DNA of 61,459 nt from a virus. Both the position numbers and the translations under genes were made by a program. The stretch covers positions 1-61,459 of IMG/VR virus record IMGVR_UViG_3300032299_000267. One strand, given 5' to 3'. The notes below the pieces were generated by a model. The model did no database searches. It had not been told where the DNA came from and saw only the letters and a program-made list of their open reading frames with translations. Positions within the stretch are counted from its first letter, which is position 1, and each line of letters begins with the position of its first letter. Positions 4,315 through 59,583 of this stretch are shown one piece after another.

Positions 4315-4322
4315 TGTGCTGG

Positions 4323-4352
4323 AAAAGGGGGATATAAAAGTCCCCCTTTTTT
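4323..4352 (+). terminator. Rho-independent terminator after capsid gene
   Basis: A perfect 10-bp stem, AAAAGGGGGA (4323-4332) and TCCCCCTTTT (4341-4350), with an 8-base loop and trailing T residues. It lies nine bases after the capsid stop. The A/T-ended stem could also work on the other strand. The following 110 bases hold only a possible -10 (TATAAA near 4369) without a clear -35. Confidence 0.9.
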
Positions 4353-4464
4353 GTATAGATTTATGATATAAAGTAAGAAATTCCGGGTATTCCGGTATGG
4401 CAAACAGTCCCGGCTGACGACATGCAGATTGCCACTACCTAACTCGCATGTGAGGAAAATTTAA

Positions 4465-4944
4465 ATGGCACTTTCTACCACCCAAAGTATTTGGCGCTCT
4501 GGCGGCGGCGACACGACTCGTCAAGCTTATTGCGGCACCGGCCTTATGACAGCTGGTTTCTTCGATGCTAATGTTACCGCTAGTAGCAATGCAGTAGTTG
4601 CGCTTGGTCAAACACCTATAGTCATTCTTCCAGCTAATGCTGTAGTAACGTCAGTCGTTATTACCAGCCCTATTACATCTGGCACTATCAATGTTGGTTT
4701 TACAACCATCACTGGCGGCGTATCTAATTCTTCTTTTTACGTAGCGAACTCAATTGCAACTTCAGCTCGCGTTATTGATCCTGGCTCTACTGGCGCAGGC
4801 GGCGGCATTGGCACCGTAGCTAACGCAACAGTTAACACAGTGTTGACTATTGAGTCTGGCCAAGGCAGCCCTGGTAACGGCACGGTTGGCGGTTTTGTTA
4901 CTTACTTCGTTACTGACTATTTGTTCGGTCAACAGAACGTCTAA
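4465..4944 (+). CDS. Virion structural protein, Gly/Ser/Thr-rich
   Basis: A 159-residue protein starting at ATG 4465 after GAGGAAA. It is almost free of charged residues, rich in Thr, Ser, Ala, Gly and Val, with repeated beta-strand patterns such as VVTSVVITSPITSGTINVGF. This composition is typical of beta-sandwich head or tail decoration proteins. No recognised domain and no signal peptide. It opens a new block of small structural genes after the capsid terminator, with the next gene 12 bases downstream behind an AGGAGG site. Confidence 0.65.
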   Translation: MALSTTQSIWRSGGGDTTRQAYCGTGLMTAGFFDANVTASSNAVVALGQTPIVILPANAVVTSVVITSPITSGTINVGFTTITGGVSNSSFYVANSIATSARVIDPGSTGAGGGIGTVANATVNTVLTIESGQGSPGNGTVGGFVTYFVTDYLFGQQNV

Positions 4945-4956
4945 TAGGAGGTCATT

Positions 4957-5472
4957 ATGACCATGCAAACAGACGTTCTAAGTGGGCATTTGCACCAAAG
5001 TGGGTTTATTATTACGCAAAATCGTTCGCGGGTTAAAGCTATCTCCATTAGGGGGACTACGAACGCTGGGCAGTTTGACCTTTTTAGTACGTTAACTGCT
5101 CCTGTGCAGGCTACGTATGGTCAGGCAAACAATACGATAACCATAACTAGCAATAATCATGGTTTATCTAATGGCGCACAGATTGGCATTAGTTTTACTG
5201 ATGGTTCTGGCGGAGCAGGTTTCCCAGGTAATTATAATATTACTTATGGAAATGTTAATTCGTTTTCTATTACAAGTCCAAATAATACAAATGTTTCTGC
5301 GGGAACATCATGCGTTTATGTAACTAATGGTACTTGGTTGGTGACGTTTGAGACTGCTGCTAACGATACGTTCCAGAATTACTTTTTGCTACCAGGCGAA
5401 GGCATTTTGGCTAAACAAACTGTGTATGCTTATTTGAGTAACATCTCAGTTGCAACAGTATTCTATGGCTAA
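4957..5472 (+). CDS. Virion structural protein, beta-rich
   Basis: A 171-residue protein preceded by AATAGGAGG. Like its upstream neighbour it is beta-rich, Asn/Thr/Gly-rich and poor in Lys. A central part (residues 45-110) reads like a surface-exposed beta domain with TITSNNHGLSNGAQIG, a pattern often seen in phage structural repeats. The N-terminal and C-terminal parts could pack as one sandwich split by this insertion. Function beyond virion structure is not visible. It overlaps the next gene by 8 bases. Confidence 0.65.
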   Translation: MTMQTDVLSGHLHQSGFIITQNRSRVKAISIRGTTNAGQFDLFSTLTAPVQATYGQANNTITITSNNHGLSNGAQIGISFTDGSGGAGFPGNYNITYGNVNSFSITSPNNTNVSAGTSCVYVTNGTWLVTFETAANDTFQNYFLLPGEGILAKQTVYAYLSNISVATVFYG

Positions 5473-5719
5473 GAAAACCCCATCCCTTGCTATTGGTCGC
5501 GGCGAAAAGCTACCTGCGTCAAAAGGGGCGGGGCTTACTGCCAAAGGTCGCGCTAAGTACAACGCAGCAACTGGGTCTAATTTAAAAGCACCGCAGCCTG
5601 AAGGTGGGCCACGTAAGAAATCATTTTGCGCTCGTATGTCTGGAATGCCAGGCCCGATGAAAGATGAGAACGGCAAGCCTACTCGTAAAGCGGCATCATT
5701 AAAAAGATGGAAATGTTGA
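5465..5719 (+). CDS. Small basic conserved phage protein (DUF6321-like)
   Basis: An 84-residue basic protein. I chose ATG 5465 inside ATGGCTAA, overlapping the previous stop. It contains GAGLTAKGRAKYNAATGSNLK and RKKSFCARMSGMPG, then RKAASLKRWKC, a set of signatures I associate with the DUF6321 family of small phage proteins; the family name is from memory. The many basic residues and paired Cys (49 and 84) suggest nucleic-acid binding or packing inside the head. Found next to structural genes in related phages. Confidence 0.7.
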   Translation: MAKKTPSLAIGRGEKLPASKGAGLTAKGRAKYNAATGSNLKAPQPEGGPRKKSFCARMSGMPGPMKDENGKPTRKAASLKRWKC

Positions 5720-5720
5720 C

Positions 5721-5912
5721 ATGGACACTCACGACATTAAAGTAATGACCGATGGCGCTGCTGTTGTTGTAGGGGTAAGTGGCTTTATGTCATGGTTCCC
5801 GCCGATTGTTGCTTTAGTTGGTGGCTTGCTTACAATAATTTGGTTAAGCCTACGTATATATGAGACTGATACTGTGAAATCTTTAATCGGTCAGTTTAAG
5901 GATAAATCATGA
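5721..5912 (+). CDS. Small membrane protein, holin-like
   Basis: A 63-residue protein with a hydrophobic stretch from about residue 13 to 47 that can form one or two membrane helices broken by SWFPP at 24-28, followed by a charged tail ending KDKS. This is a class II holin-like layout, but the gene lies among structural genes about 11 kb from the lysozyme, and a second holin candidate (16851) sits next to the lysozyme. It may instead be a virion membrane protein. Its stop overlaps the next ATG (ATGA). Confidence 0.55.
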   Translation: MDTHDIKVMTDGAAVVVGVSGFMSWFPPIVALVGGLLTIIWLSLRIYETDTVKSLIGQFKDKS

Positions 5913-6694
5913 AACGCAAAGTTAAAAAATTTGCTGAGGGCGGCACAAATGTGCGCACCCGCACTGATGAAGAATTTGCTGAAGATAGTAAGTTTGGCGG
6001 TTACGGTCGTTACATGCCAAAGACAAAAAGCATCACGCTTGGCGGCAAATCAAGCGCAGAAGAAGATCGTCCAATATCTAGCGGCGTAGAGGACTACGCG
6101 ACTTTAGGCAAACGTGCTGGCGCAGTATCTACAATGTCTGGCCCAAAGGAATACATTTCTGAGTCTATTAAAGAGGACACAGAAAAAGAAACAGAATCTC
6201 CTAAAGGTATAGCTTCCGGCTTTAAGTCAGGCGAGTCAAAGTTTGAGCGGAATGACAATGAAGTAAAGATGCCAGCAGCAAAGAAAAAAAGAAAAACTAG
6301 TGATGTTACTAAAAAATCTTATGGATTTAATGAAGATCCTTCTTATAAAACTTTGCCCGGCATAGCATCTGACAAGGATGCAAAATCGAAAACTCTGCCC
6401 GAAAAGACGGATTCTAAAAAAGAGTATTACCGTGACTTCAGCGGTAAGATTAAAGAAAAAACTCCAGATACAAATTCATTCAAAGATTTTGGCGAAATGA
6501 TTGCTAAAGGAGCTGGGGCATTAGGCAGGGGAATTAGGGATTATGCTTCAACTATTAAATCTCCTGCGCAACGTCGGGACGAGGAAAAAGCATCAAAAGA
6601 AAAAGGTTTTGCAAAAGGCGGCAAAGTTTCTAGTGCATCCTCCCGTGGTGACGGTATAGCCCAGCGCGGCAAAACGAAAGGCAGGATGTGCTAA
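5909..6694 (+). CDS. Lys/Glu-rich disordered protein with C-terminal tag
   Basis: A 261-residue protein, mostly low-complexity and charged (Lys, Glu, Ser, Gly), probably disordered. It ends in GGKVSSASSRGDGIAQRGK followed by TKGRMC, a tag shared in variants by three neighbouring proteins. The start overlaps the previous stop (ATGA at 5909-5912) and the stop overlaps the next start (TAATG). No catalytic motif. I infer a virion or assembly role from the location and the tag, with low certainty on mechanism. Confidence 0.65.
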   Translation: MKRKVKKFAEGGTNVRTRTDEEFAEDSKFGGYGRYMPKTKSITLGGKSSAEEDRPISSGVEDYATLGKRAGAVSTMSGPKEYISESIKEDTEKETESPKGIASGFKSGESKFERNDNEVKMPAAKKKRKTSDVTKKSYGFNEDPSYKTLPGIASDKDAKSKTLPEKTDSKKEYYRDFSGKIKEKTPDTNSFKDFGEMIAKGAGALGRGIRDYASTIKSPAQRRDEEKASKEKGFAKGGKVSSASSRGDGIAQRGKTKGRMC

Positions 6695-6950: not shown

Positions 6951-7505
6951 ATGAGTACACCTAAACCAAATCCCATTCAAAGGGGAGAGTCAGAAAAAAA
7001 TATAGCATATAAAATGCCTATGCCTATGCCTAAGGGAACGCCTATGCCTGAGCCTAGGAGAACGCCTATGCCTGAGCCTAAGGGAACGCCTATGCCTGAG
7101 CCTAAGGGAACGCCTATGCCTGAGCCTAGGAGAACGCCTATGTTTCAGTCTAAGGGAACGTTTATGCCTACACCTAGGCCGCCTATGCCTCGTGTGCAGC
7201 CAAAGCCTTCAGTGACGACTAGGCCTATGCCGCCTATGCCTCAAGTGCAGCCAAAACCTTCAGTGACGCCTATGCCTATGCCGCCTATGGAAGAGTTTGT
7301 GCCTGAGGATAGTAGCTATGATTATAAACCTGGATATGAACCTACATTTAGACCAATGCCGGTACCAAAAAATCCTGACCCTCCTGTATACATGAAAAAA
7401 GGTGGCAAAGTTAAATCTTCATCTGCTAAAAGAAAAGCATCAACCGCATCTAGTCGCGGCGATGGTATTGCTCAACGCGGCAAGACAAAGGGGCGGATGG
7501 TGTAA
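6951..7505 (+). CDS. Proline-rich repeat protein with C-terminal tag
   Basis: A 184-residue protein built largely of repeats. Residues about 22-70 are 8-residue units of the type MPEPKGTP, and residues about 78-111 are two 17-residue units PMPxVQPKPSVTxxPMP. The C-terminus repeats the tag SSRGDGIAQRGKTKGRM exactly as in the protein ending at 6694, but with mostly different codons. Likely an extended disordered linker with a conserved end. The tandem DNA repeats could change length by slippage. Its stop overlaps the next start. Confidence 0.62.
   Translation: MSTPKPNPIQRGESEKNIAYKMPMPMPKGTPMPEPRRTPMPEPKGTPMPEPKGTPMPEPRRTPMFQSKGTFMPTPRPPMPRVQPKPSVTTRPMPPMPQVQPKPSVTPMPMPPMEEFVPEDSSYDYKPGYEPTFRPMPVPKNPDPPVYMKKGGKVKSSSAKRKASTASSRGDGIAQRGKTKGRMV
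7013..7164 (+). repeat. 24-bp tandem repeats in coding sequence
   Basis: About six copies of a 24-bp unit encoding MPEPKGTP or MPEPRRTP variants, inside the gene at 6951-7505. The units keep frame, so copy-number change would alter protein length without frameshift. Confidence 0.85.
7182..7283 (+). repeat. Two 51-bp direct repeats in coding sequence
   Basis: Two adjacent 51-bp units encode 17-residue segments containing VQPKPSVT. They differ at a few bases. They follow the 24-bp repeat array in the same gene. Confidence 0.8.
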
Positions 7506-8074
7506 TGCCTGCCGTATCTAAAAAGCAGGAAAGGTTTATGCAGGCGGTAGCTCACAACCCTGCATTTGCTAAAAAGGCCGGTGTGCCGCAGAGTGTGGGT
7601 AAGGAATTTACTAAATCAGGAGGCGGTATGGCTGAGTCAAAGAAGATGGTTAAGAAAGAAGTGTCGTTTATGAAGTCTAAAGGCGCTCCTAAGTCCATGA
7701 TCAAACATGAGATGGCTGAAGCTGGCATGAAAAAAGGTGGCATGAGCAAGACAAAAAAGATGGCTATGGGTGGATACGCTGATGGCGGTATGCCTATGGT
7801 TATGAAGGATGGCGTAAAAGTTCCGGCGTTTGCTGCTGACGGCAAAGGTAAGATGGCTAAAGGCGGTACTGCTATGAAAAAGATGGCTAATGGCGGTATG
7901 ACTTCGATGGGCAAAGTAAAGACTGCCGCTCCTAGCCGCGATGGTGTTGCTGTTAAAGGCAAAACTGTAGGCAGGAATCTAGGTGACTCCGGCAAGAATG
8001 TTGGCATCATGAGTGGCGCTAAAGGCATGAAAAGTGGCGGTATGTCTAAGATGAAAAAAGGCGGGTATTGCTAA
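7505..8074 (+). CDS. Lys/Gly/Met-rich structural-type protein (DUF3008-like N-terminus)
   Basis: A 189-residue, strongly basic protein. Residues 1-35 (MPAVSKKQERFMQAVAHNP...) resemble the DUF3008 type of short phage protein, from memory. The rest is Lys/Gly/Met-rich with repeated units MAxGGYADGGM, KMAKGGTAMKKMANGGM and SKMKKGGYC. A version of the neighbouring tag, SRDGVAVKGKTVGRN, lies at about residues 143-157 rather than at the extreme C-terminus. Its start and stop overlap both neighbours. A DNA- or membrane-associated virion role is possible but not shown. Confidence 0.65.
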   Translation: MPAVSKKQERFMQAVAHNPAFAKKAGVPQSVGKEFTKSGGGMAESKKMVKKEVSFMKSKGAPKSMIKHEMAEAGMKKGGMSKTKKMAMGGYADGGMPMVMKDGVKVPAFAADGKGKMAKGGTAMKKMANGGMTSMGKVKTAAPSRDGVAVKGKTVGRNLGDSGKNVGIMSGAKGMKSGGMSKMKKGGYC

Positions 8075-8340
8075 TGAGGCCGTCACGCGGCATGGGTGAT
8101 GTAGCCCCTTCTAAGATGCCCAAGGGCGCAAAGAAAGCCCGCAAAGATGATACCGACTTCACCCAGTATAAGAAGGGTGGAAAGGTAAAGCCTGTGTGGG
8201 ATAAGCCGCGTCCTAAAGAATTGGGTAAGCCGTCTGTGCTTAGTGCCGTAAAGAAAGCCTCTGCTAAGAGGATGGCTAAAGCAGCAGGCAGACCTTATCC
8301 AAATTTAGTGGATAACATGCGCGCAGCTAGGAATAAGTAA
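8074..8340 (+). CDS. Small basic conserved-type protein
   Basis: An 88-residue protein. I chose ATG 8074, overlapping the previous TAA. It is very basic, with RPSRGMGDV at the N-terminus, FTQYKKGGKVKPVWDKPRPKELGK in the middle and a helical C-terminus ending NMRAARNK. It belongs to the same series of Lys/Gly-rich proteins and shares the GGKV element. The stop overlaps the next ATG. Function unknown. Confidence 0.62.
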   Translation: MRPSRGMGDVAPSKMPKGAKKARKDDTDFTQYKKGGKVKPVWDKPRPKELGKPSVLSAVKKASAKRMAKAAGRPYPNLVDNMRAARNK

Positions 8341-9080
8341 TGCCATACACAACCACTACTACAGCATTTAATCCAACCCTTAATGAAATTATTGAGGAGG
8401 CTTTTGAGCGAGTAGGTTTGGAGTTGCGTACTGGTTATGACTTTCGTACTGCGCGTCGCAGCTTAAATCTGTTGATATCAGAGTGGGCTAATCGCGGCAT
8501 TAACTTGTGGACTATTGAACAAGGGACAATCCCACTTGTTCAAGGCACAAGCACTTACGACTTGCCTGCTGATACTGTTGATCTTCTTGAGCATGTTATT
8601 CGTAACTACCCTGGATCTGAAGCTAACCAGATTGATATCAACATTAACCGAATAAGCATCTCTACGTATTCGACTATTCCTAATAAGTTGACACAAGGCC
8701 GCCCGATTCAAGTGTGGGTCAACCGCCGCTCTGGGCAGACTACGGATGCAGTTGGAGCTACACCTCAGTTGCCGCAGATTAATGTATGGCCGACGCCCGA
8801 TCAAGGCACAGCCCAGTCTCCATTCTATTACTTTGTGTATTGGCGTTTGCGCCGTATGGTAGATGCAGGCAGTGGTGTAAATGTGGAAGACATTCCATTC
8901 CGTTTTCAAGAATGCTTAATTTGTGGTCTAGCGTACAGGCTGGCAATGAAGCTGCCAAATGGATTGCAGCGCATACAGTTACTTAAAGCTCAGTACGATG
9001 AGGCATGGGAAATGGCGGCAGGAGAAGACCGCGAAAAAGCGCCAGATCGTTTGGTGCCTCGCATGATTACTTACAGGTGA
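8340..9080 (+). CDS. Head-tail connector-like structural protein
   Basis: A 246-residue protein. Residues 10-60 (LNEIIEEAFERVGLELRTGY..RRSLNLLISEWANRGINLW) form a helical bundle like that of podoviral adaptor or tail-accessory proteins (P22 gp4 / T7 gp11 type); residues 60-180 are a beta-rich insertion and residues 185-246 return to helices (YRLAMKLPNGLQRIQLLKAQYDEAWE). Helix-insertion-helix is the adaptor architecture in these phages. The precise counterpart is uncertain because another adaptor-type gene lies at 9945. Confidence 0.62.
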   Translation: MPYTTTTTAFNPTLNEIIEEAFERVGLELRTGYDFRTARRSLNLLISEWANRGINLWTIEQGTIPLVQGTSTYDLPADTVDLLEHVIRNYPGSEANQIDININRISISTYSTIPNKLTQGRPIQVWVNRRSGQTTDAVGATPQLPQINVWPTPDQGTAQSPFYYFVYWRLRRMVDAGSGVNVEDIPFRFQECLICGLAYRLAMKLPNGLQRIQLLKAQYDEAWEMAAGEDREKAPDRLVPRMITYR

Positions 9081-9083
9081 TGT

Positions 9084-9506
9084 ATGCCAAGTAAGTTTAC
9101 TAGCGGTAAGAAATCTATTGCAGAGTGTGACCGCTGTGGATTTCGATACTTGTTAAAAGAATTAAAGAAGTTGACGATCAAGACCAAGAACGTCAATATT
9201 AAAGTTTGCAAGACATGTTGGGAGCCGGATCAGCCGCAGTTAAGTATTGGTCTTTATCCGGTTAATGACCCGCAGGCAGTACGTGATCCTCGGCCTGATG
9301 TTTCTTTCTGGCAGTCTGGATTTACAGGCTTACAAACAAACATACAGTCTGGGCCGCTAATAACTGAAAATGGTTATCCTGGCGGAGGCAGTCGGGTATT
9401 TCAGTGGGGTTGGTGGCCTGTAGGTGGGGCAAGTGCAAACGATGCAGGATTGACGCCAAATTATCTGACATCAGCAGGTCAGGTTGGCAGCGTGACAATT
9501 ACATAG
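9084..9506 (+). CDS. Zinc-ribbon-containing structural protein
   Basis: A 140-residue protein with two CxxC pairs, CDRC (residues 14-17) and CKTC (41-44), about 24 residues apart: a four-Cys zinc ribbon. The rest is Gly/Pro/Trp-rich and beta-like, with FQWGWWPVGG near the middle. It sits between two adaptor-type genes, so it may be a small connector or tail component stabilised by zinc. The zinc ribbon is seen directly; the role is inferred. Confidence 0.65.
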   Translation: MPSKFTSGKKSIAECDRCGFRYLLKELKKLTIKTKNVNIKVCKTCWEPDQPQLSIGLYPVNDPQAVRDPRPDVSFWQSGFTGLQTNIQSGPLITENGYPGGGSRVFQWGWWPVGGASANDAGLTPNYLTSAGQVGSVTIT

Positions 9507-9514
9507 GAGTAGAC

Positions 9515-9679
9515 ATGGACAAGAAAGAAGTTAAGCAAATCGCTGATAAAGAAATTAAGGGTCATGAAAAGCGTATGCACAAAATGGCTAAAGGCGGCGT
9601 AACCAGCGAATCTATGCTCAAGCATGGCCGTAATATGGCTCGCGTTATGAATCAAAAGTCTAACGGAAGAGGTCGATAA
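9515..9679 (+). CDS. Small Lys/His-rich helical protein
   Basis: A 54-residue protein. I chose ATG 9515, which has AGGAG five bases upstream. It is basic and helical (KKEVKQIADKEIKGHEKRMH), followed by KMAKGGVTSESMLKHGRNMARVMNQ. The MAKGG element recurs in its neighbours. Its stop overlaps the next start (ATAATG). Function unknown; likely part of the virion-assembly series. Confidence 0.6.
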   Translation: MDKKEVKQIADKEIKGHEKRMHKMAKGGVTSESMLKHGRNMARVMNQKSNGRGR

Positions 9680-33731: not shown

Positions 33732-34649
33732 TTATTTTGTTTCTAACAAAATATCCGCAGCGCGTTTAATGTTTTCCCAAGAATCGTACCGAGGACTATA
33801 CCCAAATTGCTCTGCTGTACGATTTAAAGAATAGTAAAAAGGCTTTAGTCCTGTTGGCATAACAAATGTAGGATCAGTTATTTCAAACCTCATTCCATAA
33901 TCACGCTGCATGTAATCTAATAACGTATTTTTAGTAATAAGTCCCCGTGTGTAACAGTCCAATGCGCCGTTAGCCCCTGGCGAGATAAGTATTTGCGTCA
34001 ACAGATGCCCCAAATCTTCTGGCCCTATAAAGTCTCGCGTAGGGTTCATCATATTCACAGGCATGACTTCGCTGTTCTTAACTGAACGAATCATATTCAT
34101 CGCCATGAAGTTCAAATTAATATCCTGTGTGCCGCTGATGTAATTAAACACACGCACATCCACTATGTTTTTGTCTCGCAGCGTGCGATGCCTAACCTCT
34201 GCTTGATGCTTGGCTAAACCATAATAGTGTTGTGGTTGTGGGCTAGTTGGAAACGTAACTTTTGTATCCAGCCCCGCAGGCGCAATATCAAACGCGTCAC
34301 CATACGCTGCTCCACTACTAATAAAAATGTATTTGGTGTTAGGGCGTCGCAAAAACCGCAGTGCGAGCTGGTCGTATTTATTAGTAATGGAGAATATCTC
34401 AGCGCCCATCGCTGTTATTTTAGATGGATCACCCATACCTACAAAATTAATCACCGCATCTACATACCACTGCACATCATTCAGTAAATGGCAGCCATAT
34501 GATAGGTATTCGCGCAACCCTGTCTCTCGCATAAACGCATCAACTTCTGTTGGTTTACGAGAAAACAACAACAACGCGTGGTTATCTTGCAGCTGTAAAA
34601 TAAAATCTTTAGCAAGCTGACTTGTCGCGCCTAGTATTGCAATTCTCAT
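33732..34649 (-). CDS. NAD-dependent epimerase / dehydratase (extended SDR)
   Basis: A 305-residue extended short-chain dehydrogenase. I chose ATG 34649, overlapping the transketolase-subunit stop (ATGA). The Rossmann loop is GATSQLA at 7-13 and the catalytic pair is in HYYGLAKHQAE (YxxxK). Typical substrates are nucleotide sugars: epimerases, reductases or dehydratases in deoxysugar pathways. Following a split transketolase and RfbH, it most likely reduces or epimerises the keto product of that pathway. The GxxGxxA first loop is slightly off consensus. Confidence 0.8.
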   Translation of the reverse strand: MRIAILGATSQLAKDFILQLQDNHALLLFSRKPTEVDAFMRETGLREYLSYGCHLLNDVQWYVDAVINFVGMGDPSKITAMGAEIFSITNKYDQLALRFLRRPNTKYIFISSGAAYGDAFDIAPAGLDTKVTFPTSPQPQHYYGLAKHQAEVRHRTLRDKNIVDVRVFNYISGTQDINLNFMAMNMIRSVKNSEVMPVNMMNPTRDFIGPEDLGHLLTQILISPGANGALDCYTRGLITKNTLLDYMQRDYGMRFEITDPTFVMPTGLKPFYYSLNRTAEQFGYSPRYDSWENIKRAADILLETK

Positions 34650-35488
34650 AGACCACCTGCCCTTAACATTTCTTCTGTCGTACCAACCATGCCGCATACT
34701 TTATGGTCGAGTGCTTTTATATTTACATAACAATCCGCTTCCTTTAACCAACTACCAAATCCTCCATCTTCTAAGTGATCCTCTATAGAAATAATATTTT
34801 TATGATCACTTTGTTCTAACTGCATAGCTTTGTATTTCATGCCCCACAAAGGTATGGTGTATTGCTTTGCGTATGGGTATATGCGTGTAGCTATAGATGC
34901 TGCGGTTCCTGTCGTTACTATTGTGCGGTCTGAGTCGTCAACTTCTTTATCAACGCGCACCCACTTGCCAGGCCATACGACAGGAATATCTTTGTGTATC
35001 TCAGGCTCACCGCCTCTACCCAAACGCAGATAGCTAGGCTGTGGACACTCAATAAGGTAGCGCATACACGCGCTAGTTTCGTTGTCATCGCATGGCGCAG
35101 CAATCAACATGTTAGGCATCGAGCGCATCAACGCATAGTCCTGCACCGTATGGTGTGAGTAGCCCATAGCACCGTATGCCAGACCACCACCAACTGATAC
35201 CACAGTCACAGGTAGGTTGTGATAGTCAACATCGTTTCTAATCTGCTCTGCGCATCTAAATGTAGAGAAGTTGCCGATGCTATAGACAAACACATGATAG
35301 CCCTCTGCTGCCATGCCAGCGGCCATGCCCATCATGTTCTGCTCTGCTACACCGGCGTTGATGAAATTGTTAGGGAAGCGTTTAGCAAACTCCTCAACAA
35401 CACCCCAACCCAAGTCACCTGTGATTAGCATAATGGGTCTGCCTAATACAACGCCAGCAGTTAGTTGTTCCATGAATGACTTACGCAT
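34646..35488 (-). CDS. Transketolase-like protein, C-terminal (pyrimidine-binding) subunit
   Basis: A 280-residue protein corresponding to the second half of transketolase or DXP-synthase enzymes. It has the PYR domain with catalytic Glu49 in NAGVAEQNMMGMAAGMA, a middle typical of the family, and the C-terminal regulatory fold (RTIVTTGTAASIATRIYPYA, IISIEDHLEDGGFGSWL). It works with the product of the next upstream gene, overlapping by 8 bases, to form a TPP-dependent enzyme that moves two-carbon units. In sugar clusters such split enzymes are thought to act on keto-sugars; here the donor and acceptor are unknown. Confidence 0.85.
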   Translation of the reverse strand: MRKSFMEQLTAGVVLGRPIMLITGDLGWGVVEEFAKRFPNNFINAGVAEQNMMGMAAGMAAEGYHVFVYSIGNFSTFRCAEQIRNDVDYHNLPVTVVSVGGGLAYGAMGYSHHTVQDYALMRSMPNMLIAAPCDDNETSACMRYLIECPQPSYLRLGRGGEPEIHKDIPVVWPGKWVRVDKEVDDSDRTIVTTGTAASIATRIYPYAKQYTIPLWGMKYKAMQLEQSDHKNIISIEDHLEDGGFGSWLKEADCYVNIKALDHKVCGMVGTTEEMLRAGGL

Positions 35489-36242
35489 CTTGCACCTCCT
35501 TGATTGCTTGCTCTAACTCTGCATCAGTTGGCGTCTTGTAATGCCACTCAACCTTGTCTTCCATGAAAGACACGCCTTTGCCTTTAGTTGTCTCGGCGAT
35601 AATTGCGCGTGGTGCGTTATGCCAATACGCAAAATCTTTCGCCAGTTTTTTAACGTCATGCCCATCTTGATACGATGCGCCCCAACCAAACGCGTTGAGT
35701 TTTGCTTTCAAGTCGCGCAGGTCTAGCGTTTCTTCTACCGTGGTAATGCTTTGCAGATTGTTATTGTCGATGATTGCAATTAAGTTTTCTAACTTATGGT
35801 GTGCGGCAAACTGTATTGCTTCCCAGTTGCTGCCCTCTTGCATCTCACCGTCAGACATAATCACATACACACGGCCTTCTCTTTTCTGTAGCTGCCATGC
35901 CTTAGCTATACCCACACCAAACGGCAACCCATGACCAAGCGATCCTGTTGAGAAGTGAACGCCTGGTACTTTATGGCTTACGTGGTGCATAAGCACTGAT
36001 CCTGACTGACCATACGACTCTAAGTCTAGGTTAATACCTGAGTGTTTTAATGCTGCGTATAACGCTACAGTAGCGTGCCCTTTGGACAAGATTACTTTGT
36101 CCTCTGGTTTTAACACGCCGCCGTATAGCGCAGCCAATATATCAGCAATAGATAGCGCCGACCCGATGTGCGCAGCCTTCGCACGATGCACCATTTTTAA
36201 ACTATCTATTCGTATATATTTTGCAAGTTGTTGTGCTGTCAT
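35481..36242 (-). CDS. Transketolase-like protein, N-terminal (TPP-binding) subunit
   Basis: A 253-residue TPP-binding half. It shows the conserved SKGHA (53-57), HFSTGSLGHGLP (96-107) and the TPP/Mg motif SDGEMQEGSNWEA..NNN (130-162). It pairs with the downstream C-terminal subunit. Its ATG overlaps the RfbH stop by 4 bases (ATGA), so dehydrase, transketolase and epimerase are translationally coupled. Two-gene transketolases occur in archaea, some bacteria and polysaccharide loci. Confidence 0.87.
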   Translation of the reverse strand: MTAQQLAKYIRIDSLKMVHRAKAAHIGSALSIADILAALYGGVLKPEDKVILSKGHATVALYAALKHSGINLDLESYGQSGSVLMHHVSHKVPGVHFSTGSLGHGLPFGVGIAKAWQLQKREGRVYVIMSDGEMQEGSNWEAIQFAAHHKLENLIAIIDNNNLQSITTVEETLDLRDLKAKLNAFGWGASYQDGHDVKKLAKDFAYWHNAPRAIIAETTKGKGVSFMEDKVEWHYKTPTDAELEQAIKEVQDA

Positions 36243-37474
36243 TTCAATGTACTCATAAATTTCTTAATGGTATCTGCCACGTAGGTCAACATCTCGCGGG
36301 TGAGAGCAGGTTGCACACCTACCCAGAACGTGTTGTTCATAACCTCGTCTGTCTTCTCTAGGCTGCCGTGGATGCGGTAGTTCTGACCCTTTAAGAATGG
36401 CTGCTTGGTAGCGTTGCCAGCAAAAACTAGCCGCGTTCCAATCTGGTGTTCGTTCAAATACCAAGTCAGCTCATCCCTCTTGAACTTGGCTCGCGGCGAT
36501 ACAGTCATAGGGAATCCAAACCACGAAGGCCACGCATCAGGATAGATAGTAGGAAACCACAAATCCTGCTGATCTATCAAAGCTGATTGCAGAAACTTGT
36601 AGTTGTCCCTGCGCATCTGAACAAACCTTTCCAGTTGTTCTAGCTGCCCTAACCCACAGGCTGCCTGCATCTCCGTAATCTTCATGTTGTAGCCTACGTG
36701 CGTGAAGACATACTTGTGGTCATAGCCGTCAGGAAGACCATCGAACTTCTGACAAAACCGCTGCTTGCAAGTGTTGTCCTTACCAGGCTCGCACCAGCAG
36801 TCACGACCCCAGTCACGGAATGATTCGACTAGTCTAGTCAGCTTGGTGTTGTTAATTACTACCGCCCCGCCTTCACCCATCGTAATGTGATGGGCTGGGA
36901 AGAATGACAGCGTAGCCAAGTCGCCGAATGTGCCTACCTTCTGTCCTTTCCACTCGGCACCCAGAGCGTCGCAGCAGTCCTCTATCAGCCACAGGTTGTA
37001 CTTCTTAGCCACCTCTACCACCGCATCCACGTTGAACGGATTGCCTAGTGTGTGCGCCAAAAAGATAGCCTTGGTCTTGCTGGTGATGGCGTTCTCTAGT
37101 TCCTTGGTGCAGATGTTCAGCGTCGAATTAACATCTAGAAATACTGGCACCGCGCCCAACTGGAGGATCGGGTTGATCGTAGTAGGGAAGCCGCAGGCAA
37201 CAGAGATAACCTCGTCGCCCTTCTTGATAGCCCTATCCCCCAACTTCGGGGATGTGAGAGCTGAGAAGGCAACAAGGTTAGCAGAGCTGCCTGAGTTGAC
37301 CGTGCGTACAGCCTTACACCCAAGATACTTGGTCAAGCCATCCTCGAACCAGCGGTTGTATTGGCCAGCAGTGAGCCAGCCCTTATCCACTGCATCGTGC
37401 ATGTAGTCCTTCTCGCGATCCCCTATCACCTGCCCAGAGGCAGGGATAAAGGTTTCTCCTGGGATAAAACTCAT
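36239..37474 (-). CDS. rfbH: RfbH-type CDP-4-dehydro-6-deoxyglucose 3-dehydrase (E1)
   Basis: A 411-residue protein. I chose ATG 37474, overlapping the upstream stop; the longer frame gives a non-family N-terminus. It has the DegT/DnrJ fold with His195 in SFFPAHHITMGEGGAV at the place where the PLP lysine sits in aminotransferases, the hallmark of E1. The iron-sulphur motif C-X57-C-X1-C-X7-C recalled for Yersinia E1 is exactly present as Cys168, Cys226, Cys228, Cys236. E1 removes the 3-OH of CDP-4-keto-6-deoxyglucose on the way to 3,6-dideoxyhexoses of O-antigen. No E3 reductase partner is present, so the phage needs a host reductase. Confidence 0.9.
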   Translation of the reverse strand: MSFIPGETFIPASGQVIGDREKDYMHDAVDKGWLTAGQYNRWFEDGLTKYLGCKAVRTVNSGSSANLVAFSALTSPKLGDRAIKKGDEVISVACGFPTTINPILQLGAVPVFLDVNSTLNICTKELENAITSKTKAIFLAHTLGNPFNVDAVVEVAKKYNLWLIEDCCDALGAEWKGQKVGTFGDLATLSFFPAHHITMGEGGAVVINNTKLTRLVESFRDWGRDCWCEPGKDNTCKQRFCQKFDGLPDGYDHKYVFTHVGYNMKITEMQAACGLGQLEQLERFVQMRRDNYKFLQSALIDQQDLWFPTIYPDAWPSWFGFPMTVSPRAKFKRDELTWYLNEHQIGTRLVFAGNATKQPFLKGQNYRIHGSLEKTDEVMNNTFWVGVQPALTREMLTYVADTIKKFMSTLK

Positions 37475-38253
37475 ACTGGCGTGCCTTGTGGTTGTGTCAT
37501 TTGTACGTACTGCTCTGGCTGAGGAGTCAAACTGCCATCGAACATGTGTGTGCCGATATGTGCAAGCTTGACCCAAGGCGCTGCCCATACAGTGCCGCCA
37601 CACTTCTCGCGCCATTCTTTGCAGAAGTGGTAGTCCTCAGACAGCAGACGTTCGCCCATAGGCTCGATGCTAGTGGCAAAGAACTCAGAGATACGCTCAT
37701 TACCAATGTTGCCGCCCAAATCGTGCGTGTCATTGATGTAGCTAGGCACTTTATCTTTTAGCTTTTCAAACACCTCGCGCTTGATTAACATAAAACCTGT
37801 GCCACCATTCCAAATCTCTGTCGGCGCGTTGAAATCTACCTGCACTTGCTCGGCATAATTCATAAGGTTCACCACGAATGATCCAGAGAAAATACGGAGC
37901 TGGTCTGCTGGCACACCTGCTTGCGCTGCTCTATGAATTTGCGGCCAGTTAATTTCTTTCTTCGGGTAAATGCCACAGATGATTGGCTTGTCAGCCAAAA
38001 TCATAGGCAGCACATCTTTAGGATCAAAACGGATATCAGCATCTATAAACATCAGGTGCGTAAAGTCTGTCTTCAAAAACCCATGCACCAATGCATTACG
38101 TGCGCGCTGGATCAATGATTCGTTAAACAAAAAACTAACGGCTGTATCAATCTTGTTTTCACGCAAGCTATTTTGCAGAGTTATCAAAGATTGAGTGTAG
38201 TAGCCGTAGCACAGGCCGCCGTACATGGGGGTTGCGATGAATAGTTTTGCCAT
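37471..38253 (-). CDS. Phage GT-A-type glycosyltransferase
   Basis: A 260-residue protein with a Rossmann-like start (LFIATPMYGGLCYGYYTQSL), a DxD motif in HLMFIDADIRFDP (Asp71, Asp73) and GGTGFMLIKREVFEKL near 148-163, typical of small phage GT-A enzymes. It ends in PQPEQYVQMTQPQG. Cytoplasmic; probably transfers a sugar to a lipid, protein or glycan acceptor. Its stop overlaps the RfbH start (ATGA), linking it to the dideoxysugar genes, so the transferred sugar may be their product. Confidence 0.75.
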   Translation of the reverse strand: MAKLFIATPMYGGLCYGYYTQSLITLQNSLRENKIDTAVSFLFNESLIQRARNALVHGFLKTDFTHLMFIDADIRFDPKDVLPMILADKPIICGIYPKKEINWPQIHRAAQAGVPADQLRIFSGSFVVNLMNYAEQVQVDFNAPTEIWNGGTGFMLIKREVFEKLKDKVPSYINDTHDLGGNIGNERISEFFATSIEPMGERLLSEDYHFCKEWREKCGGTVWAAPWVKLAHIGTHMFDGSLTPQPEQYVQMTQPQGTPV

Positions 38254-38262
38254 TTGTTTCTC

Positions 38263-38985
38263 CTAGAAATTAAAAATTTGTCTTAGTGACCAATTGCAAT
38301 CGGGACGGTTTAATAACATCCACCCATTGTTAGTGAGGAATTTCTCTTCTGTCATGACCCCCGATCCATCTTTAGATAATCTGTAATTAACACTGTATTG
38401 TCCTGTTGTTCCTACTGGTACCTTCGCTCGCATGAGTTCAGCTTGGAAGTTTCTGTCAGAAATAATAGGCACATGCCATGCATGACTGTGCTTGCGCGCA
38501 ACTGTAGTCCTGACTGCATAACAAGAGTTGTCTACAAGATATTGATTATGTGAGTTTGGAATACATCCAAGAGATTCGCAGTTATCTTGACAAATAAAGT
38601 TGCCCTCACTGTCTACAATATTTCTCAAGCTATATGCCCAGCCGAGGTTATGCTTCTCTATCATGTCAACCAATGACTCTATGTGATATTGCCCATACCA
38701 GTTATCGTCATCCAAGTAGAATATGATGTCTTCATCTACAACGAAAGGAGCCATAGCAAAAACGGGAGCCATACAATAGCCCCCGCCACCGTTAGCCCGA
38801 GGAAGATTAACCACTTGTACATTATCAATACCTTTCATATTGTTTTCTACTTCTTGCCAGCAGTCTCTTCCGTGCGCAAAGACGTAGTGAGTAGCAGGAT
38901 AAGTCTGGTTTCTGATTGACTCATTCGCCTTCTTAATTGTTTCCCTGCCACGGGTGGATGTAACTACAGCTACAGATAAACTCAT
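38263..38985 (-). CDS. Family 2-type glycosyltransferase
   Basis: A 240-residue GT-A protein. It begins LSVAVVTSTRGRETIKKANESI, the usual N-terminus of GT2 enzymes, and has the metal-binding DDD in IIFYLDDDNWYGQYH (92-94). LPRANGGGGYCMAP (61-74) precedes it. The C-terminal part ends with basic and aromatic residues. Adjacent to a second GT-A protein and to a GT10 enzyme, it is part of the glycan cassette. A good RBS (GAGGAAAAG-type) lies before the start. Confidence 0.75.
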   Translation of the reverse strand: MSLSVAVVTSTRGRETIKKANESIRNQTYPATHYVFAHGRDCWQEVENNMKGIDNVQVVNLPRANGGGGYCMAPVFAMAPFVVDEDIIFYLDDDNWYGQYHIESLVDMIEKHNLGWAYSLRNIVDSEGNFICQDNCESLGCIPNSHNQYLVDNSCYAVRTTVARKHSHAWHVPIISDRNFQAELMRAKVPVGTTGQYSVNYRLSKDGSGVMTEEKFLTNNGWMLLNRPDCNWSLRQIFNF

Positions 38986-39344
38986 TTACTTTTCCTCTCC
39001 ATCTTTTCTAACAAACGCTCTGCTTTACCTACCAGTTGCTGCGCTCTACTAGATGACACACCAAGCTGTTCTCCAACTTTTTTAAATGTCATGCCATGCT
39101 GACGACATTTGTAAGCAAGCATTGATCTTTCAAATGCTTTTTTAGTTATGTTATATAAACTGTTTGGCCTCTCAAACTTATCTTTTAATTCAAATTCTTT
39201 GTAATATTCGTTGTATACAATCCTTAATTCATAAATTAAATCTTTAATAGCATTTAATTTAGTTAAGTTATCTAACTCTTCAAATTCTGTAGATATATCA
39301 ACATAAATTTGATATTCATTAAAAGTCGCTTTTATAGCGTCCAT
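38982..39344 (-). CDS. Sigma-70 region 4-like helix-turn-helix protein
   Basis: A 120-residue helical protein with a C-terminal helix-turn-helix TFKKVGEQLGVSSSRAQQLVGKAERLL (residues 85-111), as in sigma-70 region 4. The N-terminal 80 residues are acidic and helical. It starts on the GT10 stop and its stop overlaps the GT2 start, so it is co-expressed with the glycan genes. It could be a phage sigma-like activator or a small repressor for this operon; no sigma region 2 is seen. Confidence 0.68.
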   Translation of the reverse strand: MDAIKATFNEYQIYVDISTEFEELDNLTKLNAIKDLIYELRIVYNEYYKEFELKDKFERPNSLYNITKKAFERSMLAYKCRQHGMTFKKVGEQLGVSSSRAQQLVGKAERLLEKMERKSK

Positions 39345-40291
39345 TAGTACCCCTCTATCAATCTCAGTAAATCTTTAACTTCTTGGTTGCTATCAAACTG
39401 ATTAGCAGCGTCCGACCGGATGAATTCATCTATGGCTTCTAAATACTGGCAGTAACGCTCGTAACTCATACCTTTTAAGTAGGCATACAGCTCTGCATAG
39501 CTATCAAAATCCCGCATGTCTATAAAACATTCTTGTGGGATGTGGTCTGCTACGTTCGGCGCGCCCCAGTAAACAGGGACAATACCCGCCATGAATGCAT
39601 CCAGTATCTTTTCTGATATATATCCCACCGCGTTGTCGCAGTTCTCAAACGTCAGAGCAAATTTGTAGTTGCTGTAAGTTTTTAACTTGTGGTTGGATAC
39701 CCCTTTAGCCACCGGAAAAGACCGGATTTGCCAACCCCTACCCCACAAGTCAAAGTCAAACATCGCGTTCTCTTGGAACCACATGATGGCCTCTATCCGT
39801 TTCGGATATAAGCTGTGCGGCTGGTCGCTATTCTTTGCTGACTGCATCATGCACAGAAGTTTTCGACTATCAAAATCTGCCTCTGTCATGCCGCAAGAAA
39901 TACGATCAGTCCAGTCAACTGTAAAGTTGTGCTTTACATAGTTACCCCAGTTAACCAGATAGTCATTCCATGTAAGTATCTTGTCGAACCGATTGTGATA
40001 GGTGCTGTCCCAGTTGCCAGGCAAGATAGCTGGTGGCTCGTACAGAATAAGAATCTTCTCTGCATTCGGTACATCAAGATCAACCCGTGGCCTGTCCATA
40101 TAGATGACTAGGTCTACGGTAGACAGATCTACTTGGTCGGGCGTGTACAACTCTATGCCTATGGCTTTACACATCTTGTAAAGCTCAACCCACGGGCGCA
40201 GCAGGTTATGGCCTATATCACTGTTCTCATTCTTAAACAGGTAGCCATCTTCTGTGATGAACTCGTAATGGTTTTTAACTACTACCCGCAT
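39344..40291 (-). CDS. GT10 alpha-1,3/4-fucosyltransferase-like protein
   Basis: A 315-residue protein. I chose ATG 40291, which shares a base with the previous stop; a GTG is at 40294. It has the GT10 C-terminal signature: NYKFALTFENCDNAVGYISE and KILDAFMAGIVPVYWGAPN, near residues 207-245, where donor GDP-sugar binds. The N-terminal half has a Rossmann-like fold. GT10 enzymes add fucose-type sugars to LPS or glycoproteins. In this cassette it could use the dideoxysugar or GDP-fucose from the host. Confidence 0.85.
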   Translation of the reverse strand: MRVVVKNHYEFITEDGYLFKNENSDIGHNLLRPWVELYKMCKAIGIELYTPDQVDLSTVDLVIYMDRPRVDLDVPNAEKILILYEPPAILPGNWDSTYHNRFDKILTWNDYLVNWGNYVKHNFTVDWTDRISCGMTEADFDSRKLLCMMQSAKNSDQPHSLYPKRIEAIMWFQENAMFDFDLWGRGWQIRSFPVAKGVSNHKLKTYSNYKFALTFENCDNAVGYISEKILDAFMAGIVPVYWGAPNVADHIPQECFIDMRDFDSYAELYAYLKGMSYERYCQYLEAIDEFIRSDAANQFDSNQEVKDLLRLIEGY

Positions 40292-40485
40292 CACTCTCCC
40301 CTTATTTTTGCTGCCGCTTCCGACAGCCCAAGTTTTTCACAAATAACTGCACATCTTTCCCGCTCTTGTCTCTCTATTACCTTTGCCAAGCTGCGCATCA
40401 AATCCCAAGCAGCGGAGTCTGGTGCATAGATAAGATCCAGTTCTTCTGCTGCTTTGTTTACCGCTTCAAATAACTTCCTGCTCAT
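40291..40485 (-). CDS. Small helical protein with RERERCAxICE motif
   Basis: A 64-residue helical protein. Its C-terminal part VIERQERERCAVICEKLGLSEAAAKIRGE contains a motif that is widespread in small phage proteins and recurs in the gene at 46615. The role is unknown. The stop overlaps the next start (TGATG). Confidence 0.65.
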   Translation of the reverse strand: MSRKLFEAVNKAAEELDLIYAPDSAAWDLMRSLAKVIERQERERCAVICEKLGLSEAAAKIRGE

Positions 40486-49602: not shown

Positions 49603-50739
49603 ATGAAAACACTACTCGACTTAGGTACACAGCCGCTCGTCAATAATTTATGTGAGACGAAAGAAGATTCTCTATCCGTAAAAAGGTATCGCCTGCGCGC
49701 TGAGATAGCGGACGATATTCTAATTAATTTGGATGCAGAATCTACCGTGCCGCCCGATGAATTATTTGGACACTACCTATATAGGTCGGGTGTCAACATA
49801 CCGTACATCAGTCATTGCGACGGCATGGCAGAGCTATTTGTTAGCAGCCGCAGAGGCACTGTCATTGATGTTGGGGGTAATGATGGCACGTTGTTAAAAT
49901 CATTCCGGCGCACGATGGGGATACAGAATCTCATTAATGTAGACGCAAGCAGCAGCATGAGGGAAGACAATGAATCTGCGGGTATTAAATATGTAGAAGG
50001 GTATTTCAGTTCTGACATGGATTTACCCACCGCAGACATTATTACTAGCACCAACGTGTTTCAACACACCAGTGACGTACATAAATTCTTAGCTGCGATA
50101 GTCAAACATCTGCACGACGACGGCATCTGGCTGCTTGAATTTCCGTACACACTAAACACTCTCAAGACTTTGCAGTTCGATCAGTTTTATCATGAACATT
50201 ATTTTTATTGGTTGATGACTCCGCTTATCAAATTACTTAGCACGTATCAGTTAGAAGTGATACATGTAGAGGAACACTACATTCATGGCGGCAGTCTGAG
50301 GTTACTTATCAGCAAAGATAAGGATAGCTGGCACAAGTTTGACTATGCTAAGTATGTAGAGATGGAAATTGGTTTTGATTATCAAGGCTGGAATGACAGA
50401 GTTGCTGACAAAATAAAAAAAGACAAAGAATTTATTGAGAATTTACATGGTACGGTTGCGTTCTTTGGGGCAGCAGCCAAGGGTTGTGTGTATTTAAATG
50501 CGTTGGATCTTCAGGCGAGTGATAAGTATTTATACATCGTGGATGATACACCCGCAAAAGAAGGTAAGTGGATGCCAGGCACTGGATTGCAGGTAGTGGC
50601 AAGAGATTCACTGCGGTACCAGATACCAGATAATTTAATCATCTTAGCCCACAACTTTGCAGATCATATTATTAAATCATTAGGTGGCTATGATGGAAAC
50701 ATCATTACCATGTATGGCGATAATCATGGAAACATTTGA
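49603..50739 (+). CDS. Sugar C-methyltransferase (Methyltransf_14-type), minimal N-terminus
   Basis: A 378-residue protein. It starts LLDLGTQPLVNNL, which fits the Methyltransf_13 domain, but the zinc Cys that normally precede and follow are missing. The SAM site is VIDVGGNDGT (87-96), the catalytic HEH is YHEHY (196-200) and the C-terminal domain has VAFFGAAAKGC and IVDDTPAKEGKWMPGTG. The family (TylC3, NovU, TcaB9) adds C-methyl branches at C-3 or C-5 of 4-keto deoxysugars. Probably acts on a nucleotide sugar and cooperates with the glycosyltransferases of this phage. Confidence 0.85.
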   Translation: MKTLLDLGTQPLVNNLCETKEDSLSVKRYRLRAEIADDILINLDAESTVPPDELFGHYLYRSGVNIPYISHCDGMAELFVSSRRGTVIDVGGNDGTLLKSFRRTMGIQNLINVDASSSMREDNESAGIKYVEGYFSSDMDLPTADIITSTNVFQHTSDVHKFLAAIVKHLHDDGIWLLEFPYTLNTLKTLQFDQFYHEHYFYWLMTPLIKLLSTYQLEVIHVEEHYIHGGSLRLLISKDKDSWHKFDYAKYVEMEIGFDYQGWNDRVADKIKKDKEFIENLHGTVAFFGAAAKGCVYLNALDLQASDKYLYIVDDTPAKEGKWMPGTGLQVVARDSLRYQIPDNLIILAHNFADHIIKSLGGYDGNIITMYGDNHGNI

Positions 50740-57910: not shown

Positions 57911-58117
57911 ATGAATAAGCTATCAGATAGAGAACTGTTACTGGAAGCGTTCGAGCTTCTATATACCATTTACAGAAATCAGAATGGCACAAGGTATAAA
58001 AGAGATATCAGTGTTTACCCTACGCTATCAAGAATTAAAAATCGATTGGAAGAAACTATGAATAATGGGTATAGTCCGGCTGAAGAAAGAAAGAAGGCGA
58101 ACGGGCAGTGGACTTAA
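57911..58117 (+). CDS. Small helical protein before large terminase
   Basis: A 68-residue helical protein (KLSDRELLLEAFELLYTIYR, then VYPTLSRIKNRLEETM) ending basic. Its 3' end overlaps the TerL GTG by 10 bases. It may be a packaging accessory or an unrelated small gene. No family recognised. Confidence 0.62.
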   Translation: MNKLSDRELLLEAFELLYTIYRNQNGTRYKRDISVYPTLSRIKNRLEETMNNGYSPAEERKKANGQWT

Positions 58118-59583
58118 GTGAACTGATAGGAAAGCTTCCTGCCAACGAGCAGGAGAAATTACTGGAGCAGGTGAGCCAGTATAAGGATGCTGTCACGCGG
58201 GAGAAAGCGCAAAAGTCGTTCATGGCGTTCGTGCATGAAATGTGGCCTGGGTTTATACACGGCAGGCATCATGCTCTTATGGCAAAGAAGTTTGAGGAGA
58301 TAGCTGAGGGTAAGTTAAAGAGGCTGATCATCAACATGCCGCCGCGACATACCAAATCAGAGTTTGCTAGTTACTTACTGCCGAGTTGGTTCTTGGGGAA
58401 GTACCCAAATAAGAAAGTAATCCAGACATCTAACACGGCGGAATTAGCTGTGGGGTTTGGTAGGAAGGTTAGGAACTTAGTTGATAGCGACCAGTATTCG
58501 AAAATCTTCCCAGGGGTCGGTCTCCGTGCGGATTCCAAGGCGGCGGGGCGTTGGGCAACTAGCCACGGCGGGGATTATTTTGCTATCGGTGTTGGCGGTA
58601 CCGTTACTGGTAAGGGTGCTGACCTACTAATAATAGATGACCCGCACTCGGAACAAGAGGCGAAGTTAGCTCAGGGTGATCCGACGGTATTTGACAGTGT
58701 GTACGAGTGGTATACATCTGGCCCGCGTCAGCGTTTGCAACCAGGTGGCGCAATTATTGTCGTGATGACACGCTGGTCGGATAAAGATCTGACTGGCAAG
58801 GTGTTGAAAAGTGACGCGACAGACTGGGAAGTGATAGAACTGCCAGCGATTTTGCCCTCTGGCAACAGTTTGTGGCCTGAATTCTGGCCGCTAGAAGAAT
58901 TAGAGGCGTTAAAAGAGGAACTTCCGCCCTATAAATGGAACGCTCAGTACCAGCAGCAGCCTACGGGCGAAGAAGGTGCGCTGGTAAAGCGGGAATGGTG
59001 GAAGAGATGGGACGGAAATAGAGCGCCGCCCTGCGAATTTATCATCCAAAGCTGGGATACGGCGTTCACAAAAAGCCAGAGGGCTGACTATTCTGCGTGT
59101 ACAACATGGGGCGTGTTCTACAAAGACGAGAATGAGAGCGATGTAAACATCATTTTGCTTGATTCGTGGAAGGATAAGCTGGAATTTCCTGAATTAAAGG
59201 CAAAAGCTAAGGAAATGTACGACGAATGGGAGCCTGATGCTTGCATTATTGAGGCAAAAGCAGCCGGGGCACCGCTGATATTTGAGTTACGAAGGATGGG
59301 TGTGTACGTACAAGACTACACACCAACTAGAGGTAACGATAAGTTCGTGCGATTGAACAGTGTTACTGACTTATTTTCATCTGGCAAGGTTTGGGCACCA
59401 GAAACTAGGTGGGCGGACGAGGTTATCGAAGAAATGGCACGGTTCCCGAACGCGGAACACGATGACTTGGTCGATAGCACGGTGCAAGCCCTTATGAGAT
59501 TTAGGCAAGGCGGATTTTTGCGGCTTGATTCCGACGAAGAAGACGATCCTATCGAATTCCGTCGCAAGCGCGTTTACTACTAA
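58108..59583 (+). CDS. terL: Terminase large subunit (ATPase-nuclease)
   Basis: A 491-residue protein starting at GTG 58108. The ATPase has Walker A MPPRHTKS (77-84), Walker B DLLIIDDPH (172-180), and coupling motif VVMTRWSD (218-225). The nuclease has SWDTAF (Asp317), IIEAKAAG (Glu382) and EHDDLVD (450-456), the usual acidic cluster. It drives DNA into the prohead and cuts it. It lies just upstream of the portal, with AAGGA before the portal start. The motifs fit a headful or cos-type terminase; which one is not decidable here. Confidence 0.92.
   Translation: MDLSELIGKLPANEQEKLLEQVSQYKDAVTREKAQKSFMAFVHEMWPGFIHGRHHALMAKKFEEIAEGKLKRLIINMPPRHTKSEFASYLLPSWFLGKYPNKKVIQTSNTAELAVGFGRKVRNLVDSDQYSKIFPGVGLRADSKAAGRWATSHGGDYFAIGVGGTVTGKGADLLIIDDPHSEQEAKLAQGDPTVFDSVYEWYTSGPRQRLQPGGAIIVVMTRWSDKDLTGKVLKSDATDWEVIELPAILPSGNSLWPEFWPLEELEALKEELPPYKWNAQYQQQPTGEEGALVKREWWKRWDGNRAPPCEFIIQSWDTAFTKSQRADYSACTTWGVFYKDENESDVNIILLDSWKDKLEFPELKAKAKEMYDEWEPDACIIEAKAAGAPLIFELRRMGVYVQDYTPTRGNDKFVRLNSVTDLFSSGKVWAPETRWADEVIEEMARFPNAEHDDLVDSTVQALMRFRQGGFLRLDSDEEDDPIEFRRKRVYY

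Follow-up and report, generated by a model that had tools for sequence, protein, structure and literature searches.

A phage cassette that joins RfbH to a split transketolase, a probable finishing set for a branched CDP-deoxysugar

INTRODUCTION

What would a phage do with a transketolase that is split into two chains and set between a sugar dehydrase and a sugar reductase? This question is raised by IMG/VR virus record IMGVR_UViG_3300032299_000267, which we analyzed as one whole record of 61,459 bases (the window). In its minus-strand cassette, RfbH, the E1 enzyme of 3,6-dideoxy sugar synthesis, is followed by the two halves of a split transketolase (TktN and TktC) and by a reductase of the short-chain dehydrogenase/reductase (SDR) type. 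In the established yersiniose pathway, whose genes are ddhA-D, yerE, and yerF (PMC4509608), YerE takes activated acetaldehyde from pyruvate and adds it to cytidine diphosphate (CDP)-3,6-dideoxy-4-keto-D-glucose (PMC12247030). Gene context is the only basis on which transketolases have been proposed to act on ketone sugars, and the 13 putative sequences given in a 2025 review all come from Streptomycetes (PMC12247030). The rfbH gene is already listed as a viral gene (PMC10653327, PMC11295528); in the open-access literature, we found no paper joining RfbH and a split transketolase as a pathway. A preliminary description of the locus proposed that the transketolase pair adds a two-carbon branch to the 4-keto sugar. 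Our analysis of the genes points the same way, and the cassette is probably a phage-borne finishing set for a branched CDP-deoxysugar.

RESULTS

The core of the cassette consists of RfbH (positions 36239 to 37474, 411 amino acids [aa]), TktN (35481 to 36242, 253 aa), TktC (34646 to 35488, 280 aa), and the SDR (33732 to 34649, 305 aa), preceded by a GT-A-like glycosyltransferase (37471 to 38253, 260 aa). All five genes of the preliminary description are present on the minus strand where it had placed them, and the overlaps it had noted are 4 bases long at GT-A/RfbH, RfbH/TktN, and TktC/SDR and 8 bases long at TktN/TktC. RfbH starts at 37474, not at 37615; for the SDR, the listed open reading frame (ORF) opens at 34697, and the ATG at 34649 is preferred because it overlaps the TktC stop as ATGA. 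The ratio of nonsynonymous to synonymous substitution between phages, where computable, is 0.04 to 0.18 for the cassette genes, which indicates that they are maintained.

The evidence that bears most directly on the transketolase comes from a scan of viral contigs carrying RfbH. Viral relatives at 66 to 95% identity keep the GT10, GT2, and GT-A glycosyltransferases, RfbH, and the SDR, and in 13 close relatives (L002 to L007, L009 to L011, L014 to L016, and L018, counting L006, which is cut short, and L018, which has frame breaks), a YerE-like enzyme dependent on thiamine diphosphate (ThDP) lies between RfbH and the SDR. This enzyme, of the acetohydroxyacid-synthase/YerE type, is mostly encoded by two ORFs, one with TPP_enzyme_N and TPP_enzyme_M and the next with TPP_enzyme_C; in L007, one continuous alignment suggests that the halves are fused in a single chain. 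The domain order TPP_enzyme_N, _M, _C was found in L003 and L010, and the same slot of the window holds transketolase domains. The best solved match of the YerE-like enzyme, 8rph, is labelled only "thiamine pyrophosphate-binding protein"; we take this entry to be the YerE-like enzyme JanthE. Five viral contigs are of the transketolase type (the window, L008/L181, L030/L178, L179, and L180). Between the window and L002, L003, L004, and L016, DNA similarity of 81 to 87% runs through RfbH and ends 13 to 16 bases before its stop; it is gone across TktN-TktC-SDR and is back, at 83 to 89%, about 30 bases or less from the SDR stop. In the comparison with L015, similarity resumes exactly at the SDR start. 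The borders of the exchange fall at the ends of genes. One YerE-type phage has an RfbH 95% identical to the one in the window, and in the RfbH tree the window protein sits inside a YerE-type clade (support 100/99), separate from the clade formed by L008, L179, and L180; since the transketolase type thus occurs in two distinct RfbH clades, the exchange has probably happened at least twice. Exchange between the same RfbH and SDR argues that the transketolase occupies the functional slot of YerE.

RfbH passes the curated model NF011936 (630 bits; cut-off, 423) and aligns over its full length with the E1 structure 3bcx (1e-151 for 3bcx/3bb8). The hallmarks read from the sequence at the outset hold: His195 stands in place of the lysine that binds pyridoxal phosphate, and a script found a single C-X57-C-X-C-X7-C match, at position 168 (C168, C226, C228, and C236). 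The histidine lines up with 3bcx; in the solved entry 3bb8, the position is occupied by a lysine. By family score and residues, RfbH is a true E1 (CDP-4-keto-6-deoxyglucose 3-dehydrase), with a predicted 3-dehydration activity in concert with an E3 reductase.

TktN and TktC together carry the ThDP-binding and pyrimidine domains, the ThDP/Mg residues, and the catalytic Glu and His of a split transketolase. TktN, the pyrophosphate-binding half, matches PF00456 (Transketolase_N) at 2.6e-30, with the N chain of 6yak as its best solved match, and TktC, the pyrimidine-binding and C-terminal half, matches PF02779 (Transket_pyr) at 1.5e-32, with the C chain of 6yaj as its best. In the numbering of Escherichia coli TktA (L177), to which both were aligned, TktN retains the equivalents of H26, H66, H100, D155, N185, and H261, and TktC retains those of E411 and H473. 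The sugar-phosphate site of the E. coli enzyme, which we take to be R358, S385, H461, D469, and R520, is altered in TktC, where H461 is replaced by G, D469 by M, and S385 by G, and the canonical site is thus not preserved. In transketolases, His461 helps to hold the substrate phosphate and Asp469 touches one of the substrate's hydroxyl groups; the absence of both is consistent with a ketone acceptor that is not phosphorylated, without proving it, and makes an enzyme restricted to sugar phosphates less likely. The same pattern runs through a bacterial transketolase class in which the phage TktC nests with full support (100/100) and which is deeply separated from canonical split transketolases. 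Every class member keeps the eight ThDP and catalytic residues listed above, where the chain half is covered, but position 461 is occupied by G and position 469 by M or L; both H461 and D469 are retained in generic split transketolases (L038, L042, L055, and L056).

The preliminary description had suggested looking for the same gene order in bacterial loci, and it was found there with the upstream genes in place. Of 398 Pseudomonadota genomes sampled, 37 have an RfbH above the cut-off. One locus (L129) reads RfbF-RfbG-RfbH-TktN-TktC-SDR, its RfbF and RfbG passing curated models (TIGR02623 at 438 bits and TIGR02622 at 488 bits); another (L106) reads E3-RfbF-RfbG-RfbH-TktN-TktC-SDR, with a more distant transketolase, and in L105 and L132, RfbF-RfbG-RfbH has TktN-TktC nearby. 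Versions with YerE also occur, such as RfbF-RfbG-RfbH-YerE-SDR in L100. A TktC profile seeded with three class members drew a sharp class, with five genomes at 490 bits or more and the next at 255; three more members came from a second order. Because three had seeded the profile, only five other members are independent, and four of these (L172, L173, L174, and L175) adjoin RfbF-RfbG; in the fifth, L171, the contig ends 502 bases past TktN. A profile search of 399 genomes of the order of G007 gave no further member. In the class genomes, RfbH lies close by in G965 and elsewhere in the genome in G074. Among the 398 genomes, RfbH co-occurred with four of five class members (hypergeometric, 3e-4), a statistic that we set aside since three of the five had been picked from RfbH neighbourhoods to build the profile, and a single order accounts for three. 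The alternation of YerE and transketolase in one slot, in phages and in bacterial RfbF-RfbG loci, supports the yersiniose-type logic that had been assigned to the cassette and gives strong genomic support to the putative role of the split transketolase as its branching enzyme.

The last enzyme of the core belongs to the SDR/epimerase family of nucleoside diphosphate (NDP)-sugar reductases, occupies a YerF-like position, and matches PF01370 at 1.4e-09, with a Y-X3-K motif (YGLAK) and an SSG motif. The window SDR alone gave no solved-structure match; its profile gave weak matches to NDP-sugar SDRs only, among them GDP-6-deoxy-D-mannose reductase 6x3b. In the same-position SDRs of 10 phage and bacterial cassettes, the catalytic Y and K are invariant. 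The SDR of the YerE-type phage L015 is 80% identical to that of the window, which is in line with an enzyme that reduces either branch ketone.

The series extends beyond the limits first given to it, adding a GT2, a helix-turn-helix (HTH) protein, and a GT10, so that GT10, HTH, GT2, GT-A, RfbH, TktN, TktC, and SDR follow one another on the minus strand from 40294 to 33732. The GT-A gene is the weakest call; it matches phrog_1574 at 6e-45, a PHROG of unknown function, and Pfam Glycos_transf_2 weakly, under its cut-off, and it adjoins RfbH in the closest viral relatives. GT2 (38263 to 38985, 240 aa) matches PF00535 at 9.2e-07, and the GT10 fucosyltransferase-like enzyme (39344 to 40294, 316 aa) matches PF00852 at 3.7e-18. 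In the transketolase-type phage L008, the GDP-fucose genes gmd and fcl (4154 to 6056) lie beside GT10. The small HTH protein (38982 to 39344, 120 aa) is sigma region 4-like, with a weak Sigma70_r4 match below cut-off; its gene lies within the glycosyltransferase run, where the DNA is AT-rich. A promoter scan gave fewer promoter-like sites than shuffled sequences. Elsewhere the window encodes phage structural genes, a 1,903-aa virion-type protein, and a large terminase (58108 to 59583) that is 51 to 58% identical to those of phage DSL-LC04 (Gammaproteobacteria), pelagiphages HTVC023P and HTVC027P, and one further phage. No DNA-level match to known phages was found over 20 to 44 kb of the window (24 kb, megablast). 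Far from the cassette, at 49603 to 50739, lies a methyltransferase with a C-methyltransferase C-terminal domain (PF08484), a type frequent in deoxysugar clusters.

Other kinds of phage also carry a split transketolase in nucleotide-sugar clusters. The unrelated viral contig L182 (6092 to 9703) has RfbG-TktN-TktC-RfbF, a nearly complete CDP-4-keto sugar and transketolase set whose RfbG and RfbF are 45 to 55% identical to bacterial ones. L188 has TktN-TktC-RfbH at 7324 to 9628, and in L188, L191, L195, L196, and L202, all viral, the split transketolase lies beside RfbH-like or RfbG-like genes and the TktC motifs deviate from the canonical GEDG. An Omnitrophota sugar locus (L032, 10004 to 15434) combines a non-canonical split transketolase, SDRs, and an ORF pair whose N termini resemble pyruvate-dehydrogenase E1 alpha/beta. 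Matches to transketolase and to RfbH named as "Listeria/Salmonella phage" are short unannotated contigs that may be host DNA, and they were not used.

DISCUSSION

From the gene anatomy we infer what the transketolase and the SDR catalyze, which donor is used, what is made, and where it goes. Host RfbF and RfbG would make CDP-4-keto-6-deoxyglucose, and phage RfbH, with a host E3-type reductase, would take off the C-3 hydroxyl to give CDP-4-keto-3,6-dideoxyglucose. TktN and TktC, holding ThDP between the halves, would then move a two-carbon ketol (glycoloyl) unit onto the C-4 ketone, forming a tertiary alcohol with a hydroxyacetyl branch. Reduction of the branch ketone by the SDR would give CDP-3,6-dideoxy-4-C-(1,2-dihydroxyethyl)-hexose, in effect yersiniose with an extra hydroxyl, and the adjacent glycosyltransferases would place this sugar on a surface glycan, most likely the host O-antigen; infected cells might plausibly change serotype or exclude rival phages as a result. 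The preliminary description named virion glycosylation as another possible destination. The yersiniose-type genes of the window are RfbH, the ThDP enzyme, and the SDR only (the upstream genes are present in the bacterial loci L106 and L129), so the host must supply the CDP-4-keto sugar and the phage would divert the host CDP-sugar pool. A complete phage-borne route is rejected for this reason, which corrects the preliminary description.

Several observations weigh against the proposed pathway. RfbF, RfbG, and E3 are not recognizable in the window, and the full yersiniose-type gene set is thus absent from it. According to the 2025 review, acceptance of a ketone sugar by a transketolase in a pathway of this kind has never been demonstrated in vitro (PMC12247030). 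R358 and R520 are kept in the phage enzyme (R520 is Lys in the bacterial members), so that some anion binding may remain, and if the donor-phosphate site is gone, the usual ketose-phosphate donors may go unused. Among the bacterial members, L174 and L175 combine the transketolase and RfbF-RfbG without RfbH, L172 has RfbH on another contig, and RfbH was not found in genomes G094, G999, and G1020; the acceptor therefore need not be a 3-deoxy sugar. Because some members have RfbF-RfbG and lack RfbH, the class appears tied to CDP-4-keto-6-deoxy sugars (CDP-4-keto-6-deoxyglucose), with 3-deoxygenation looking optional.

These bacterial loci also nourish a different account, in which the split transketolase branches CDP-4-keto-6-deoxyglucose itself and RfbH serves a parallel or later sugar of the same operon. 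The transketolase with RfbF-RfbG and no adjacent RfbH (L172, L174, and L175) and the two genomes without RfbH (G999 and G1020) would agree with it, whereas in the phages RfbH is coupled to TktN by a 4-base overlap or stands directly before YerE, which in the known pathway uses the E1/E3 product; we regard this account as unlikely. It is still less probable that the ThDP pair uses another donor, such as a hydroxylated 2-oxoacid, and so builds a branch of another kind, after the example of ErwE in the formation of erwiniose. The preference of ErwE for hydroxylated longer 2-oxoacids (PMC12247030) and the loss of the phosphate-site His461 speak for such a donor, but ErwE is a YerE-type decarboxylase, whereas transketolases transfer two-carbon ketol units.

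The most remote account is an ordinary pentose-phosphate transketolase that happens to lie beside sugar genes and serves, in the infected cell, to boost the host's supply of nucleotides or sugar phosphates. Phages often carry central-carbon genes, and the pair belongs to the transketolase family with its catalytic residues kept. Yet YerE stands in the same slot, RfbF-RfbG adjoin the bacterial genes, His461 and Asp469 are lost, and the tree separates the class deeply from canonical split transketolases. This account is very improbable, and the generic enzyme was rejected on slot exchange, gene context, and residues; chance adjacency was likewise rejected, as five viral contigs of the transketolase type share the arrangement with several bacterial loci. 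The finishing set proposed here stands as the preferred reading, and we lean toward a wider one as well: a distinct split-transketolase class, found in Pseudomonadota polysaccharide loci and phages, may form tertiary alcohols on CDP-4-keto sugars and be interchangeable with YerE in modular cassettes shuffled by phage recombination.

Should the proposed reaction be borne out, carbon addition to a ketone sugar by a transketolase would occur outside antibiotic producers. In this natural exchange, the position flanked by the same RfbH and SDR is filled by either of two different ThDP enzymes, and the resulting enzyme sets, small and closely related (RfbH 95% identical), make ketone acceptance by a transketolase directly testable. 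The cassette predicts a hydroxylated relative of yersiniose, and phages are seen to shuffle the modules that define rare surface sugars.

The cassette shares with the yersiniose A pathway of Yersinia pseudotuberculosis and Pseudomonas WCS417, which serves the O-antigen, an E1 (ddhC/RfbH), a ThDP enzyme, and a final gene, the SDR being likened to yerF by position; it differs in having a split transketolase in place of YerE and no equivalents of ddhA, ddhB, and ddhD. The two-chain transketolase of Carboxydothermus hydrogenoformans (6yaj/6yak) is the best solved match but, unlike phage TktC, retains the canonical THAG...GEDGASHQ motif. AviB1/AviB2-type enzymes, which are alpha-keto acid dehydrogenase-like, are also two-component ThDP enzymes with a proposed two-carbon branch addition, although they belong to another ThDP superfamily and use pyruvate as donor. 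The split transketolases of miharamycin and amipurimycin synthesis in Streptomyces resemble the phage pair, by description, in their proposed hydroxyacetyl transfer to a keto sugar, in an antibiotic context and on another sugar. The YerE cassettes of the sister phages have the same glycosyltransferases, an RfbH up to 95% identical, and an SDR in the same position, and differ in that a YerE-like enzyme, usually of two chains, replaces TktN-TktC.

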